A DNA stretch of 8,011 nucleotides from NCBI GenBank assembly GCA_031285525.1, contig JAITWB010000050.1:1-8011 (forward strand), read 5' to 3'. This document shows positions 30 through 7,208 of this stretch, piece after piece. The number at the start of each line of letters is the position of its first letter. Position 1 is the first letter of the stretch. This DNA is from Spirochaetaceae bacterium. Lineage in GTDB: Bacteria > Spirochaetota > Spirochaetia > Treponematales > Treponemataceae. The notes under the pieces were generated by a model that saw only the letters and a program-made list of their open reading frames with translations, was not told the DNA's origin and made no database searches. The translations under genes were made by a program, and so were the position numbers.

Positions 30-126
30 TTATTATGCCGTTGACCTATCCACTAAAGGGTGATAACCTATTCCTGTATGGCTTACTACTCTTCTTCTAA
101 GATATACTTCAAGCCTCAAGCAAGCT

Positions 127-180
127 CTGCGGACTGCGGACTGCGGACTGCGGACTGCGGACTGCGGACTGCGGACTGCG
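127..180. repeat. Perfect 7-bp tandem array, unit CTGCGGA, about 7.7 copies
   Basis: Seven exact CTGCGGA units plus a final CTGCG run without a mismatch, which suggests recent expansion or homogenisation. CAAGC occurs just before and just after the array. It ends 289 bp before the lipoprotein 1 start. An array with a different 7-bp unit ends about 250 bp before lipoprotein 2. It lies outside any gene, so copy-number change would alter spacing rather than reading frame. Confidence 0.95.
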
Positions 181-355
181 CAAGCATACCGCCAATGCTC
201 TCTTTGTCAACCTATTAGTACCCTCTAACACTCTTTTTTACGCTTTTGTATCCTCTGCTATTGTAAGAGTCCGGCGCTTTCCGGTGTCCGCCTTTTATAG
301 AGGGAACTGCCGTCGGCAGTCTCCCATCCGTTACGGTATTGCCGTATCGGACTGG

Positions 356-382
356 ACATTGTCCAGACAACATTGTCCAGAC
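356..382. repeat. 14-bp tandem duplication within leader copy 1
   Basis: ACATTGTCCAGAC occurs at 356-368 and again at 370-382, separated by one A, giving a period of 14 bp (two heptads). It duplicates the right half of the CTGGACA/TGTCCAG palindrome. Leader copy 2 has only one, at 6604-6613, so this is a private slippage event in copy 1. Confidence 0.9.
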
Positions 383-388
383 CTCTTG

Positions 389-450
389 ATTGAGGGTTAA
401 TCACAACTGATTACCCGTCAATGAGGAACTTCTTCAAACGGGGGTAATCA
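389..450 (+). promoter_or_regulatory. Candidate two-state RNA switch or attenuator (A/B/C segments), copy 1
   Basis: Segment A (389-403) pairs with B (408-422): ATTGA+GGG+TAATCA against TGATTA+CCC+TCAAT, about 14 bp with one bulged base on each side and a CAAC loop. B can instead pair with C: TGATTACCC (408-416) against GGGTAATCA (442-450), a perfect 9-bp stem. The two structures exclude each other. C ends 7 nt before the GGAG ribosome binding site. The same arrangement, with altered stem sequence, is at 6625-6675. No known riboswitch class is recognised and no T-run follows, so a translational effect is more likely than termination. Function is inference. Confidence 0.45.
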
Positions 451-468
451 GGCAAACGGAGTTTTTCT

Positions 469-1446
469 ATGAAAAACATGTTCAAACTACTGGGGATTAT
501 CGTCATAGCGGCGGTAATAGGATTCATGGTTGTCGGCTGCGGCGGGGGAAACACTCTTGGCGGTGACGGTGACAATACCACGGATAATACGCCCTCGACC
601 ACCCCTCCTACCGAGAATCCTCCCCAGTCAAGCGGAGTAAATGCTGTCAGCGGAAAAACATATTATCAAGCTGACACAAGAACTGTTTTTTCAGCCACCG
701 CCGAGGGCGCTGTAACCGGGACATATACCGTCGGACAAAACGATGGCGATACGGATACAAATGGCAAATATGTCTACGAAGATATAGTAAAAGGTTCCTA
801 CACGTGGAATGAAACCGCAAAAACAGTGACTTTAACGCCTACAGAGATAAACGTACAGGGCTCCTTCATAACAAAATCCGCCTACCTTACAGCAATGCAG
901 GAGATGCTTGCTGAAACACGTGCTGCGCTTGAAGCAATGTCTCAGGATGAACTAATGGAGGCATTGGGCAATACCGATATAGATGCCTACATGGATGTTT
1001 ATACAGAACAAGTAGAGGCTATGGTAGATGACACTTTTGCCGTAAAAACAGCAGCCTATTCTTTCAGCACTGATAATACGGCATTGTTCCTGGTTCAGTC
1101 ATTACAGGCAAATAAGGGAACGAATGAATTGGCAGGGAAGACTTATTACGATGCGGCAGACGAAAATATAACATTCGTTTTTACCGCCGATACATATACA
1201 TACACCGATTCTGCGAATAATCGAACAATATCCGGCTCTTATACCTATGACAGCGAAGCCGCAATGGGTATTTTCAGACCTGAAACAATGTCCGGAATGA
1301 CCCGTGCGCAAATCTATACAGAGATGCCAGCACCGGGTCCGCACAGTTACGCAGATGACAACGCATACCTCGCTGCACTTATCAATGGTCAGTTTGCCAT
1401 CTCATATTTTTATTATGACAGTGTTAATCTGCTGATACACTGGTAA
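469..1446 (+). CDS. Putative outer-surface or periplasmic lipoprotein with two repeat domains (lipoprotein 1)
   Basis: Hypothetical lipoprotein of 325 residues. A signal peptide (MKNMFK, then a hydrophobic stretch) ends in a lipobox VVGC with Cys24 as the predicted lipidated residue, so it should be membrane-anchored after signal peptidase II cleavage. A Gly/Asn/Thr/Pro-rich linker (about 25-55) follows. Two related beta-rich units start at GVNAVSGKTYY (56-66) and GTNELAGKTYY (217-227), each leading to a GSYT motif (109-112 and downstream of 227). A Met/Glu/Ala-rich, probably helical segment (about 137-188) separates them. GSYTW…VTLTPTEI (109-127) resembles GNYTI…VTLTTKEI in lipoprotein 2, so the mature parts are distant relatives. 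The ATG at 469 is chosen for its GGAG site 7 nt upstream and because the same MKNMF start is used by lipoprotein 2. The gene converges on the ABC operon. Ligand and role are unknown. Confidence 0.9.
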   Translation: MKNMFKLLGIIVIAAVIGFMVVGCGGGNTLGGDGDNTTDNTPSTTPPTENPPQSSGVNAVSGKTYYQADTRTVFSATAEGAVTGTYTVGQNDGDTDTNGKYVYEDIVKGSYTWNETAKTVTLTPTEINVQGSFITKSAYLTAMQEMLAETRAALEAMSQDELMEALGNTDIDAYMDVYTEQVEAMVDDTFAVKTAAYSFSTDNTALFLVQSLQANKGTNELAGKTYYDAADENITFVFTADTYTYTDSANNRTISGSYTYDSEAAMGIFRPETMSGMTRAQIYTEMPAPGPHSYADDNAYLAALINGQFAISYFYYDSVNLLIHW

Positions 1447-5739: not shown

Positions 5740-6300
5740 CTAACCGCCGGGACTGCCTCCGGCTGTTTGGACATCTTCATTCCTATTCAAAATCTGTGCC
5801 TTTGATATGTCTGTTTTTTCATTTCGAGAAACATTCTTGCAAAAATCTTCAAAGGAAAGTGGTTTAGTAACTTTATAGAATGTTTTCCCCCTTAAACACT
5901 TGTTTTTTCTACCCATTAAAATCTCTTCAAAATAGAGGTATGTAATAGCATCAACCATTTTGGCATAAGCATTAATCAAAGCCGTTTTTCTTACAGCTCC
6001 AATAATTGCATAATCCGGAGCTTTTATGATATCAGAAATGTATTCAAAATCCGCATTGGTAATAGTTGCAGCCCCATGGATTGCGGGATTCCCATGACGT
6101 TTGAGACTATGCGCTAATAAATCGCTTGTTATTTCATGTATAAATTCTGAAAGATCAAGCCCAATGGTTGATGCCGCAGCCAAGAGCCATTCTTCCGGTT
6201 TTCCTAACTCGTCTTTGATAAAATCACTCACACCTTGTTTATACCAGAAAAATAAAAAACAATGAAATGCTTTTATAGCGATAAAAACGTCACTACACAC
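5740..6300 (-). CDS. PBECR-like nuclease-domain protein, probably degraded and of phage or foreign origin
   Basis: Open frame of 186 codons. I recognise, by memory only, the pattern of the phage-associated Barnase/EndoU/ColicinE5/RelE-like (PBECR) nuclease domains: GLDLSEFIHEITSD, then HSLKRHGN, then an ITNADFEYISDIIKAPD block, then FEEILMGRKN and a TFYKV segment. Such domains usually sit at the C-terminus of phage head or toxin-like proteins. Composition is AT-rich, unlike the neighbours, suggesting transfer. The start is doubtful. GTG at 6300 has no well-placed ribosome site. A nearby AAAGGAG (6323-6317) leads to an ATG in another frame that stops after six codons. GTG at 6231 is an alternative that drops an unconvincing aromatic N-terminus. 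The frame ends at TAG within GGSPGG, but 47 further in-frame codons, with a second SPGG, follow. It may be a pseudogene. Product assignment is moderate to low. Confidence 0.55.
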   Translation of the reverse strand: MCSDVFIAIKAFHCFLFFWYKQGVSDFIKDELGKPEEWLLAAASTIGLDLSEFIHEITSDLLAHSLKRHGNPAIHGAATITNADFEYISDIIKAPDYAIIGAVRKTALINAYAKMVDAITYLYFEEILMGRKNKCLRGKTFYKVTKPLSFEDFCKNVSRNEKTDISKAQILNRNEDVQTAGGSPGG

Positions 6301-6391
6301 AACTAAAAGACATTGACTCCTTTAAGTTGCAGTGGTATTCTATTCCTAATGGTTTATGTTATGAAACTTCGAGATATAATTCTAATCAATT

Positions 6392-6440
6392 ACGCAATAC
6401 GCAATACGCAATACGCAATACGCAATACGCAATACGCAAA
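6392..6440. repeat. Perfect 7-bp tandem array, unit ACGCAAT, about 6.9 copies
   Basis: Six exact ACGCAAT units and a seventh ending ACGCAA(A). The array lies about 20 bp before TTTGTCAA and about 250 bp before the lipoprotein 2 start, matching the position of the CTGCGGA array relative to lipoprotein 1. Unit length and copy number agree between the arrays, but the unit sequences do not. Confidence 0.95.
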
Positions 6441-6510
6441 ATTATTCGACCGACTCATTCTTTGTCAATAATCTAATACTGTTTTTTTCTCTTTTTCTTT
6501 CCTGTTGCCA

Positions 6511-6544
6511 TAAAAGCCCATCCTGTTTCAAGGATTGGCTTTTA
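6511..6544. terminator. Terminator-like hairpin, symmetric on both strands
   Basis: Arms TAAAAGCC (6511-6518) and GGCTTTTA (6537-6544) pair perfectly. After one C/T mismatch, ATCC (6520-6523) pairs with GGAT (6532-6535), around an 8-nt loop. The stem base is A-rich on one side and T-rich on the other, so it could end transcription in either direction. It could insulate the lipoprotein 2 leader from upstream transcripts. The 3' arm overlaps the possible -10 box, so a promoter role for that box and a terminator role here are in tension. Confidence 0.45.
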
Positions 6545-6624
6545 TATAGGGATATTGCCGTCGGCAGTCTCCCATCCGATACGGCATTGCTGTATCGGTC
6601 TGGACATTGTCCAAGCCTCTTTAT

Positions 6625-6675
6625 TGAGGGTGTAATCACAAGCTGATTAGCCCTCAGATTTGTTGAGGGTGATCA
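6625..6675 (+). promoter_or_regulatory. Candidate two-state RNA switch or attenuator (A/B/C segments), copy 2
   Basis: A (6625-6638) pairs with B (6644-6656): TGAGGG and TAATCA against TGATTA and CCCTCA, 12 bp with a small internal loop and a CAAGC loop. B can instead pair with C (6664-6675): TGAT/ATCA plus CCCTCA/TGAGGG, about 10 bp with an internal loop. C lies 5 nt before the AGGA ribosome site. The layout equals copy 1, while the lower B stem differs (CCCTCA here, CCCG there). Direct similarity of A and C could by itself create the second pairing, so function is unproven. Confidence 0.45.
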
Positions 6676-6692
6676 GGAAAAGGATGTTTTCT

Positions 6693-7124
6693 ATGAAAAA
6701 CATGTTCAAAGCTTTAGGGTTTATCGCACTGATCGCGGTAATCGGTATGATGGTGGTCGGCTGCGCCCCCGGCGGCGGTACCCTTACGGGAACATGGGTA
6801 GATAAAGAAGGGATACAGACATTTAAATTCACCGGCAATAAATGGGAAACAGAATTCACGGATAAAGGAATGACATATGCGGCAAATAGCTCGAAGATGC
6901 CACAAGCTATTATCCAGTTTTTTATAAAAGGGAACTATACTATAAATGGAGATATAGTAACGCTCACAACTAAAGAAATAAGACTGGGGGGACTAGGGAA
7001 TTCATTGAGCGATTCATTGGGGAATTTATTTAATTATGTACGTATAACAGACACAATAAAAGGCATCCACAATGAAGCATCTGCTGAATTGACTTTTGAA
7101 GGCATGGTCTTCAAAAAGAAATAA
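6693..7124 (+). CDS. Putative small lipoprotein (lipoprotein 2)
   Basis: Hypothetical lipoprotein of 143 residues. The first 24 residues (MKNMFKALGF… to lipobox VVGC, Cys24) are nearly the same as in lipoprotein 1, so signal peptidase II processing and membrane anchoring are expected. The mature part is short and beta-rich: LTGTWVDKEG (31-40), FKFTGNKWE (45-53), GNYTI (80-84), VTLTTKEI (89-96) and LTFEGMVFKKK at the end. The pattern suggests a small lipocalin-like or similar antiparallel barrel, but the fold is a guess. An upstream in-frame ATG at 6660 would add 11 residues. It is rejected because the ATG at 6693 has AGGA at good spacing, gives a proper signal peptide and matches the other copy. 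A strong hairpin follows the stop. Role unknown. Confidence 0.88.
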   Translation: MKNMFKALGFIALIAVIGMMVVGCAPGGGTLTGTWVDKEGIQTFKFTGNKWETEFTDKGMTYAANSSKMPQAIIQFFIKGNYTINGDIVTLTTKEIRLGGLGNSLSDSLGNLFNYVRITDTIKGIHNEASAELTFEGMVFKKK

Positions 7125-7134
7125 CCGTTACGTC

Positions 7135-7208
7135 TTAACAGGGAGGGAACAGATCGCCGCTGGGTGATATGCCCCCCGGGAGGCGGCGATCTGTTCCCCC
7201 ACTGTTAA
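7135..7208. other. Long stable hairpin between lipoprotein 2 and the J-protein gene
   Basis: A perfect 16-bp stem (7145-7160 with 7183-7198) is extended, across a 3-by-3 internal loop, by TTAACAG/CTGTTAA (7135-7141 with 7202-7208). The loop can form a further small GGG/CCC stem. No T-run follows directly on either strand, so it is not a textbook intrinsic terminator. It begins 10 bp after the lipoprotein 2 stop, so it may end or stabilise that transcript. It could also be a dispersed palindromic repeat unit. Confidence 0.6.

Follow-up and report, generated by a model that had tools for sequence, protein, structure and literature searches.

Putative phase-variable lipoprotein loci with interchangeable 5′ parts in a termite-gut spirochete

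Two lipoprotein genes in a stretch of 8,011 nucleotides from a Spirochaetaceae bacterium (contig JAITWB010000050.1 of assembly GCA_031285525.1; hereafter the window) are each preceded by a perfect array of 7-bp repeats and a leader, and the locus raises the question of what such repeats do in front of two proteins whose mature parts appear unrelated. Judged by sequence, each copy is probably a contingency locus, a phase-variable lipoprotein gene whose 5′ parts are interchangeable, and many exported-lipoprotein genes of these spirochetes use a common control-and-export module, often with a slippage-prone repeat and a folded leader. The window, an 8-kb contig, belongs to a termite-gut Treponema-like spirochete. 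The closest matches of its ABC transporter were metagenome-assembled genomes (MAGs), Spirochaetaceae Mx356_bin16 matching at 91% along part of the protein, and identity was 70% to Brucepastera parasyntrophica and about 60-65% to many Treponema MAGs; we take the names of these MAGs to indicate a termite-gut origin. A short contig of Mx356_bin16 aligned with the window DNA inside the ABC gene and no farther, so the lipoprotein 1 locus is not common to both. Family-wide occurrence was assessed in the genomes of relatives rather than in the window's own genome, using 195 genomes that form the taxonomic family of one relative and a class-level set of 148 genomes (G, L and P numbers below are our handles for genomes, loci and proteins).

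The original prediction described the same ordered architecture before both lipoproteins, and every part of it was located in both copies. Arrays of about seven perfect units were found as described, CTGCGGA repeated 7.7 times in copy 1 (127..180, the end being corrected to 180) and TACGCAA repeated 7 times in copy 2 (6391..6439); perfect 7-bp arrays of at least three copies occurred four times in 1.29 Mb including the window, and two of these are the window arrays. They are followed by TTTGTCAA (203-210 and 6461-6468), which, in its plus-strand reading, lies at a candidate reverse promoter, and by a TTTTATA box on the plus strand (293..299 and 6540..6546), all read directly. Three plus-strand palindromes come next (307-319, 328-350, and 352-366 within 307..366; 6556-6566, 6576-6598, and 6601-6613 within 6556..6613), and then the hairpin segments of the leader (382-451 and 6615-6675), the Shine-Dalgarno sequence (SD), the ATG, and the codons for MKNMFK to VVGC. 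The signal peptides MKNMFKLLGIIVIAAVIGFMVVGC (469..540) and MKNMFKALGFIALIAVIGMMVVGC (6693..6764) open lipoprotein 1 (325 amino acids [aa], 469..1446) and lipoprotein 2 (143 aa, 6693..7124), all on the plus strand. Judged by eye, both proteins and the lipoprotein 1 family carry the traits of a Sec/SPII lipoprotein, namely N-terminal charge, a hydrophobic core, and a lipobox Cys. The DNA of the two copies was 93% identical over 58 nt (308-365 and 6556-6613) and 76% identical over 88 nt (454-541 and 6678-6765), and the second match ended one base past the Cys codon, which agrees with the sharp drop in similarity noted there before.

The 93% identity is what would be expected if the segment with one lipoprotein gene had simply been duplicated in this genome, but the mature parts have no detectable kinship, the arrays differ, and the family occurs in other genomes. 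In the set of 80 mature proteins described below, the best BLASTP match between the mature parts of lipoproteins 1 and 2 was 40% over 30 aa (E values of 0.17 to 0.43), and a profile of the lipoprotein 1 family (48 sequences) aligned with lipoprotein 2 over the signal peptide alone (28 columns). The protein database gave 55 further relatives of lipoprotein 1, at about 32-45% identity and most of them unnamed, and the predicted structure of lipoprotein 1 was confident (predicted local distance difference test score [pLDDT], 87.8), with nothing at an E value of ≤0.001 in a search of the PDB. Lipoprotein 2 found none but itself in the protein database at an E value of ≤0.001, and its predicted structure was unusable (pLDDT, 41.8). 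The signal peptide and leader precede many unlike mature proteins in relatives, and we reject simple duplication as scarcely credible; a pair of full-length homologues confined to this window, the outcome that would have reduced the locus to a gene duplication, is not what was found.

A 29-row profile built on the signal peptide detected at least one copy in 61 of the 195 family genomes at an E value of ≤1e-5. At an E value of ≤0.1, the copies numbered 45, 20, 18, 6, 3, 1, and 0 in genomes G066, G003, G096, G070, G109, G002, and G001, respectively. The 93 profile-matched places gave 79 loci (at L139, which has two such places, one was scored), and one locus from a leader BLASTN search brought the set to 80 loci. 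Of these, 78, from five genomes, gave mature proteins of at least 40 aa; together with the two window proteins, these 80 mature proteins fell into 28 groups by single-linkage BLASTP, with 15 singletons that include both window proteins. The three largest groups numbered 15, 13, and 10 proteins, and G066 supplied 13 of those in the first; this partly paralogous cargo, with 13 members in one cluster, weighs against a simple view of diversified cargo. Thus, common parts stand before different cargo, and one kind of cargo also carries different signal peptides: the 48 aligned members of the lipoprotein 1 family kept the mature part, and their signal peptides were MKKGFLGILALTLIFGMAV-type, cassette-type (as in P0014, P0016, P0020, and P0027), or neither. 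One mature family with several classes of signal peptide means that signal peptides and cargo were re-paired.

Simple repeats were strongly concentrated upstream of these genes. Among the 80 signal-peptide loci, 19 had a simple repeat (20 arrays) within 47.8 kb of upstream sequence, whereas the 71.1 kb downstream had a single array and a background of 1.256 Mb of related loci had 6; perfect arrays before surface-protein genes, the mark of a simple-sequence-repeat contingency locus, were therefore found above background. Eight of 60 further loci, which came from 31 genomes outside G066, G003, and G096 and were mostly the top of the matches listed, also had an array. Upstream density exceeded background 38- to 83-fold. 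The units in signal-peptide loci were C, AC, TA, TC, AGAC, CAATT, CCACAGG, ACACAGT, CCACGGC, TTCCCTG, and CAACAGG, and loci found with the RNA model described below gave four new arrays among 30 loci and three among 8, adding CAGACAA, GCCAACA, ACAAACA, and GCAACAA. Assorted 7-bp units at a like position had been anticipated; the units are indeed assorted, with lengths of 1, 2, 4, 5, 7, and 8 bp overall, and not 7 bp alone. A search with the mature part of lipoprotein 1 alone found 11 places in 10 of the 195 genomes, and an array lay upstream in 9 of the 10 loci examined (L341, a partial match, was left out, and distances to the array are rough in L333, L337, L338, and L339). At background density, 9 of 10 has a binomial chance of 1e-22 if the loci are independent. 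The units there were TCATTAC (two copies in one genome), GGCAAGCA, CCCTACT, CGCA, and C (four loci). Additionally, two G066 loci with left flanks 67.5% identical over 237 nt carried different heptamers, CCACAGG and ACACAGT. In the lipoprotein 1 family and in these two loci, placement is kept while the unit changes, and related left flanks with different heptamers suggest selection on repetitiveness and not on one binding sequence.

Repeats could also be passive, as slippage products that pile up in long intergenic regions, with only the leader and signal peptide functional. Poly-C tracts, present in 19 of 22 genomes and in some cases before no exported protein, speak for this, but the upstream density, the kept placement with changing unit, and the TGTCAA neighbor of 12 of 16 long-unit arrays (see below) all speak against it. 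So does the strand bias of the poly-C tracts themselves: the 30 sampled loci represent 21 distinct tracts, of which 13 were followed by a signal-like gene on the C side, compared with 1 on the G side (lipobox-type genes, 5 and 0), counts that are to be read with the short G-side flank of many tracts and a C-side flank of <50 bp in two. We consider passive repeats improbable; a contingency repeat, an idea absent from the original prediction, explains the array best. Some of the sampled poly-C tracts (L302-L331) precede lipoproteins with quite different signal peptides, and repeat control may thus extend past the present one.

If the arrays are contingency repeats, their position relative to promoters matters, and candidate sigma-70 promoters were found on both sides. 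The candidate forward promoters of the window are TTGACC-N17-TAACCT in copy 1 (41..69, 57 bp before the array; score 8.5, shuffle P of 0.155) and TTGACT-N17-TATTCT in copy 2 (6313..6341, 49 bp before the array; score 11.0, shuffle P of 0.07), both on the plus strand. Of 28 arrays given, 24 had enough flank to be scored for a forward promoter on the left, and 14 of these reached a P of ≤0.045. A fixed rule applied to 130 nt found one at 13 of 31 arrays, whereas random places had one in 2.8% of cases and repeat-less loci in 7 of 99; in seven G066 loci of the CA type, TTGACA-N18 and a TA-box lay just beyond those 130 nt. On the leader side, the hexamer TGTCAA was present within 55 nt in 12 of the 16 long-unit arrays (≥4 bp) and in 1 of 25 with units of 1 or 2 bp, against 1.3% of 4,000 random places and 0 of 99 repeat-less family loci (these 41 arrays do not include those of L139 and L218, the second array of L128, or the later finds at L347, L349, and L350). 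Read on the opposite strand, it is TTGACA, with a −10-like box 16-19 bp nearer the array. This candidate reverse promoter had a shuffle P of ≤0.045 in 8 of 9 long-unit arrays scored, and its −10 box ended 1-7 nt from the array in six, 12 nt in L256, and 24 nt in L251. The window has it as TTGACA-N16-TATGCT (183..210) and TTGACA-N16-AATAAT (6441..6468), on the minus strand, each unequalled in 200 shuffles. From the forward and reverse scores, long-unit arrays appear to lie in the 5′ untranslated region (5′UTR) between two convergent promoters. The TTTATA/TTTTAT box was tried as a second promoter and rejected as not general in relatives, being present in 12 of 38 loci, compared with 11% in shuffles.

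The same reverse promoters would fit an array that belongs to an opposite-strand transcript, either an antisense RNA or a divergent mRNA with the repeat at its 5′ end, leaving the lipoprotein antisense regulated or a bystander. Apart from the 8 of 9 scored arrays and the closeness of six −10 boxes, this reading draws on minus-strand open reading frames (ORFs) left of the array. In window copy 2, the reverse promoter faces a minus-strand ORF (5740-6300) with a PBECR3 nuclease-like domain (Pfam E value, 7.6e-13), and the arrays of L124 and L150 also have minus-strand ORFs on their left (L202, L203), neither with a Pfam match, as do L207 and L209; thus, some of the reverse promoters may serve a gene. 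Poly-C right flanks that read AAGGAG-N4-ATG/GTG into the G tract on the minus strand fit as well. On the other side, the nearest ORF left of the array is on the plus strand at L165 and L178 (L204, L205), the sequence past the G tract is by eye unlike between loci, and loci found through lipoprotein 1 retain the placement of the array relative to that gene. We regard an opposite-strand transcript as the owner of the array as unlikely. A poly-C right flank, A[TC]GTAACTCCTTAT, is common to three genomes (L337, L339, L137, L147, L148, and L159) and reads on the other strand as AAGGAGTTAC-ATG/GTG into the G tract.

A repeat in a transcribed region might also switch frames, with the array inside a short upstream ORF and the unit number setting where the ribosome stops relative to the leader hairpins. 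No array unit within 700-800 bp upstream is a multiple of 3 bp (read off the array lists), no unit has a sense-strand stop codon in any frame, and both window arrays are within open 52-codon frames, all of which speak for this idea. A consistent SD-start pair is absent, however, the G066 CA-type copies carry substitutions without third-position bias (by eye), and the window frame stops short of the lipoprotein start, which leaves frame switching very unlikely.

Between the putative contingency repeat and the gene lies the leader RNA, on the plus strand in both copies. In copy 1 (382..461), it comprises hairpin 0:A within 382-403, hairpin B:C formed by 407-417 with 439-451, and the SD at 458-461; in copy 2 (6614..6686), it comprises hairpin 0:A and hairpin B:C formed by 6643-6655 with 6664-6675. 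An exact leader 22-mer had no match in the genome contigs and none in the viral contigs, so the leader sequence is not kept between species while the fold is. BLASTN with the leader, which had been expected to yield many relatives, matched in only 4 of 31 genomes, mostly across the SD and signal peptide, and the family was found through profile and RNA-model searches instead. Three of the BLASTN-matched loci were rejected as family members, since by eye L082 is an SPFH-like gene, L083 runs antisense to part of an ABC gene, and L091 is ftsZ-like. In L084, a related leader precedes a different N-terminus. All four were left out of the array counts. L083 itself carries an 8-bp array, (CTCGATCC)11, about 190 bp upstream of another possible start, with a forward TTGACA farther upstream.

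An alignment of 25 seed leaders picked by eye, including both window copies, L084, L100, and L104, showed two tandem hairpins right before the SD, with 80.4% of the cells paired. Covariation was strong: 15 of 18 pairs had changes on both sides, none of 500 shuffles was as high, and slid versions of the fold reached at most 48.5%. The A, B, and C hairpin segments first described were thus upheld as two tandem hairpins; their alternative A:B pairing, the mutually exclusive fold that a bistable attenuator or riboswitch would need, was present but weak (75.3% paired, with its covariation reached by 4 and its double-change pairs by 149 of 500 shuffles). The covariance model R2 matched in 20 of 22 chosen genomes at an E value of ≤0.1 and in 18 at ≤3e-4, G001 and G002 being unmatched, and with stricter filters in 5 of the 148 class genomes at ≤1e-4, G003 among them. 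The window copies scored 28.8 bits (382-461) and 28.9 bits (6614-6686), and both are model seeds. Among the 30 best R2 loci, 13 of them seeds, 26 were 5-10 nt upstream of the start of an export-signal gene (one start was corrected by eye), two lay about 20 nt before such a gene, and two (L290 and L291) look like chance; six (L273, L281, L293, L297, L298, and L299) had clearly other signal peptides. In 20 non-seed matches, 89.2% of the cells were paired, a level not reached in 500 shuffles, in an alignment fitted to the model. A search of Rfam 15 assigned the window leader to no family, with one sub-threshold match elsewhere in the window, and in nine relatives it gave a single tRNA and nothing else.

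The start codon is itself held in a small hairpin, GTTTTTC-TAT-GAAAAAC in copy 1 (461..477) and ATGTTTT-CTATGA-AAAACAT in copy 2 (6684..6703), both on the plus strand, in which the SD-to-ATG spacer is complementary to codons 2-5. The pairing tracked codon changes between loci, as in GTTCTT-TATG-AAGAAC, GGCTTTTT-ATG-GAAAAGCT, and GTTTCTT-ATGAA-GAGAAAC. Over 145 loci, the mean stem score was 10.74, compared with 9.61 (standard deviation, 0.20) for re-paired spacers and codons, and none of 300 re-pairings was as high; in the 47 loci without MKN start codons, 8 of 1,000 permutations were. These statistics take related loci as they stand, with kinship left in.

The original prediction saw a module that supplies expression control and export to diversified cargo. 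Its family-wide occurrence in relatives was borne out, and its unity was not. The signal peptide was also found without an array or a recognizable leader, arrays also precede lipoproteins with other signal peptides, and the leader also precedes genes with other signal peptides; because each part occurs separately, the parts form a loose kit rather than one fixed cassette. Outside G066, 10 of 25 loci had their nearest leader within their own genome, compared with 1.1 by permutation (0 of 2,000 as high), and our best reading is that the leader and signal peptide have been copied among genes by duplication or gene conversion.

The following course of events would connect these parts. A sigma-70 promoter would start an mRNA with the slippage-prone repeat within its 5′UTR, and a second sigma-70 promoter beyond the repeat would fire back through it. 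Slipped-strand mispairing would add or remove units, and the resulting shift in 5′UTR length and in the geometry of the convergent promoters would alter the amount of mRNA. The folded leader, with its two tandem hairpins, SD, and start-codon hairpin, would then set translation, and the common signal peptide would export the diversified cargo, the leader and signal peptide having spread among genes through duplication or gene conversion. Transcription from either promoter, slippage, and an effect of repeat number or of the leader on expression are what we infer in this scheme. A more specific version, which we hold only tentatively, is a convergent-promoter switch, with the array between a forward promoter and a reverse one whose −10 box adjoins it, in which unit number would set promoter interference and antisense length; selection would keep repetitiveness and not the sequence, and units would therefore turn over. 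The leader would be passed, with or without the signal peptide, among exported proteins of termite-gut treponemes, and the whole would be a many-gene phase-variable surface system of an insect symbiont.

Several observations weigh against the contingency reading. Neither forward promoter of the window was significant alone, the reverse −35 element TGTCAA was absent near 4 of 16 long-unit and 24 of 25 short-unit arrays, and a minus-strand ORF lay on the left in two of the four long-unit relatives read further, as in window copy 2. By the cut used, 61 of 80 and 52 of 60 signal-peptide loci had no array. Length differences were seen only between paralogues (CA8 to CA25), one genome per species being compared. 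Two of the nine arrays at lipoprotein 1-family loci are G016 copies with the same unit, and the 15 G066 array loci are largely paralogous. Poly-C tracts are widespread, and 8 of the 21 sampled had no following signal-like gene by a crude rule. For the leader, the RNA-model seeds were chosen by eye and the non-seed alignment was fitted to the model; the start-codon hairpin was scored in family loci only. In the nearest-leader comparison, whose alignment was likewise fitted to the model, the window's two leaders are not mutual nearest neighbors, which counts against concerted evolution.

With these points weighed, we still favor contingency loci for the two copies. Phase-variable surface proteins are best known from pathogens, and termite-gut spirochetes are mostly uncultured, with some living as symbionts of gut flagellates. 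The arrays suggest that termite-gut spirochetes may switch their surface coat through changes in repeat length, and a many-gene phase-variable set in these bacteria, if true, would mean that surface switching serves symbionts too. The kept placement with a changing unit offers a natural test of whether contingency function comes from the sequence of a repeat or from its slippage and length, and the leader is an RNA element, absent from Rfam, that can now be searched as a covariance model.

A few further repeats were seen around the lipoprotein genes. Degenerate CT-rich short repeats, CTCCCTGCTTTTCTCC-like, flank lipoprotein 1 at 6-30, 1499-1523, and 1520-1544 and are possibly decayed arrays. 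After lipoprotein 2, 7135-7208 holds a 26-nt inverted repeat with arms 92% complementary and a 22-nt spacer, likely a terminator or a dispersed palindrome. In G066 (L206-L209, L211, and L202), a 150- to 200-bp repeat with internal palindromes starts close after the upstream gene in several loci, and one inverted copy lies elsewhere in L207; this is a repetitive extragenic palindromic (REP)-like element at the left edge of the cassette.

Judged by listings of the open-licence literature on repeats, phase variation, lipoproteins, and leaders or tracts in treponemes (those of termites included) and spirochetes, nothing describes this system, but there are several partial parallels. In Haemophilus influenzae hmw1A/hmw2A, 7-bp repeats precede a surface protein gene in the 5′UTR from a far promoter and more repeats in hmw1A mean less mRNA from the upstream promoter (P2) and less protein (PMC8262952). 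A candidate forward promoter before the array, as an hmw-type repeat would have, scored here at the frequencies given above (14 of 24 by shuffling, 13 of 31 by the fixed rule; P of 0.155 and 0.07 in the window). Unlike hmw, with heptamers only and at the hmw loci, the present system comprises many loci in each genome, with units of 1-8 bp, a folded leader, common signal peptides, and a candidate reverse promoter towards the leader (PMC8262952). The vlhA genes of Mycoplasma gallisepticum are likewise many lipoprotein genes with a variable upstream repeat and conserved flanks, but they use one unit, (GAA)n, placed some 40 nt before the start site (PMC6258824); here, the units are assorted, none is a multiple of 3, the repeat is probably transcribed, and there are many cargo groups, so that the homologous mature proteins of a vlhA-like family were not found. 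Treponema pallidum tprL shares the genus name and a homopolymer (poly-G) in the promoter whose length affects tprL activity; it has a homopolymer only, before a putative outer-membrane protein, whereas a leader RNA and a signal peptide are common to genes here (PMC7864442). In Moraxella catarrhalis uspA2, an (AGAT)n repeat lies 132 bp upstream of the ORF and the uspA2 mRNA level follows repeat number, at a single locus in contrast to the many loci with a common leader here (PMC7302503). Finally, the TAACTGA arrays of Beggiatoaceae are, like ours, intergenic heptamer arrays upstream of starts, and they occur genome-wide, but they repeat one conserved heptamer, possibly a binding site, whereas here the unit differs from locus to locus (PMC4679880).

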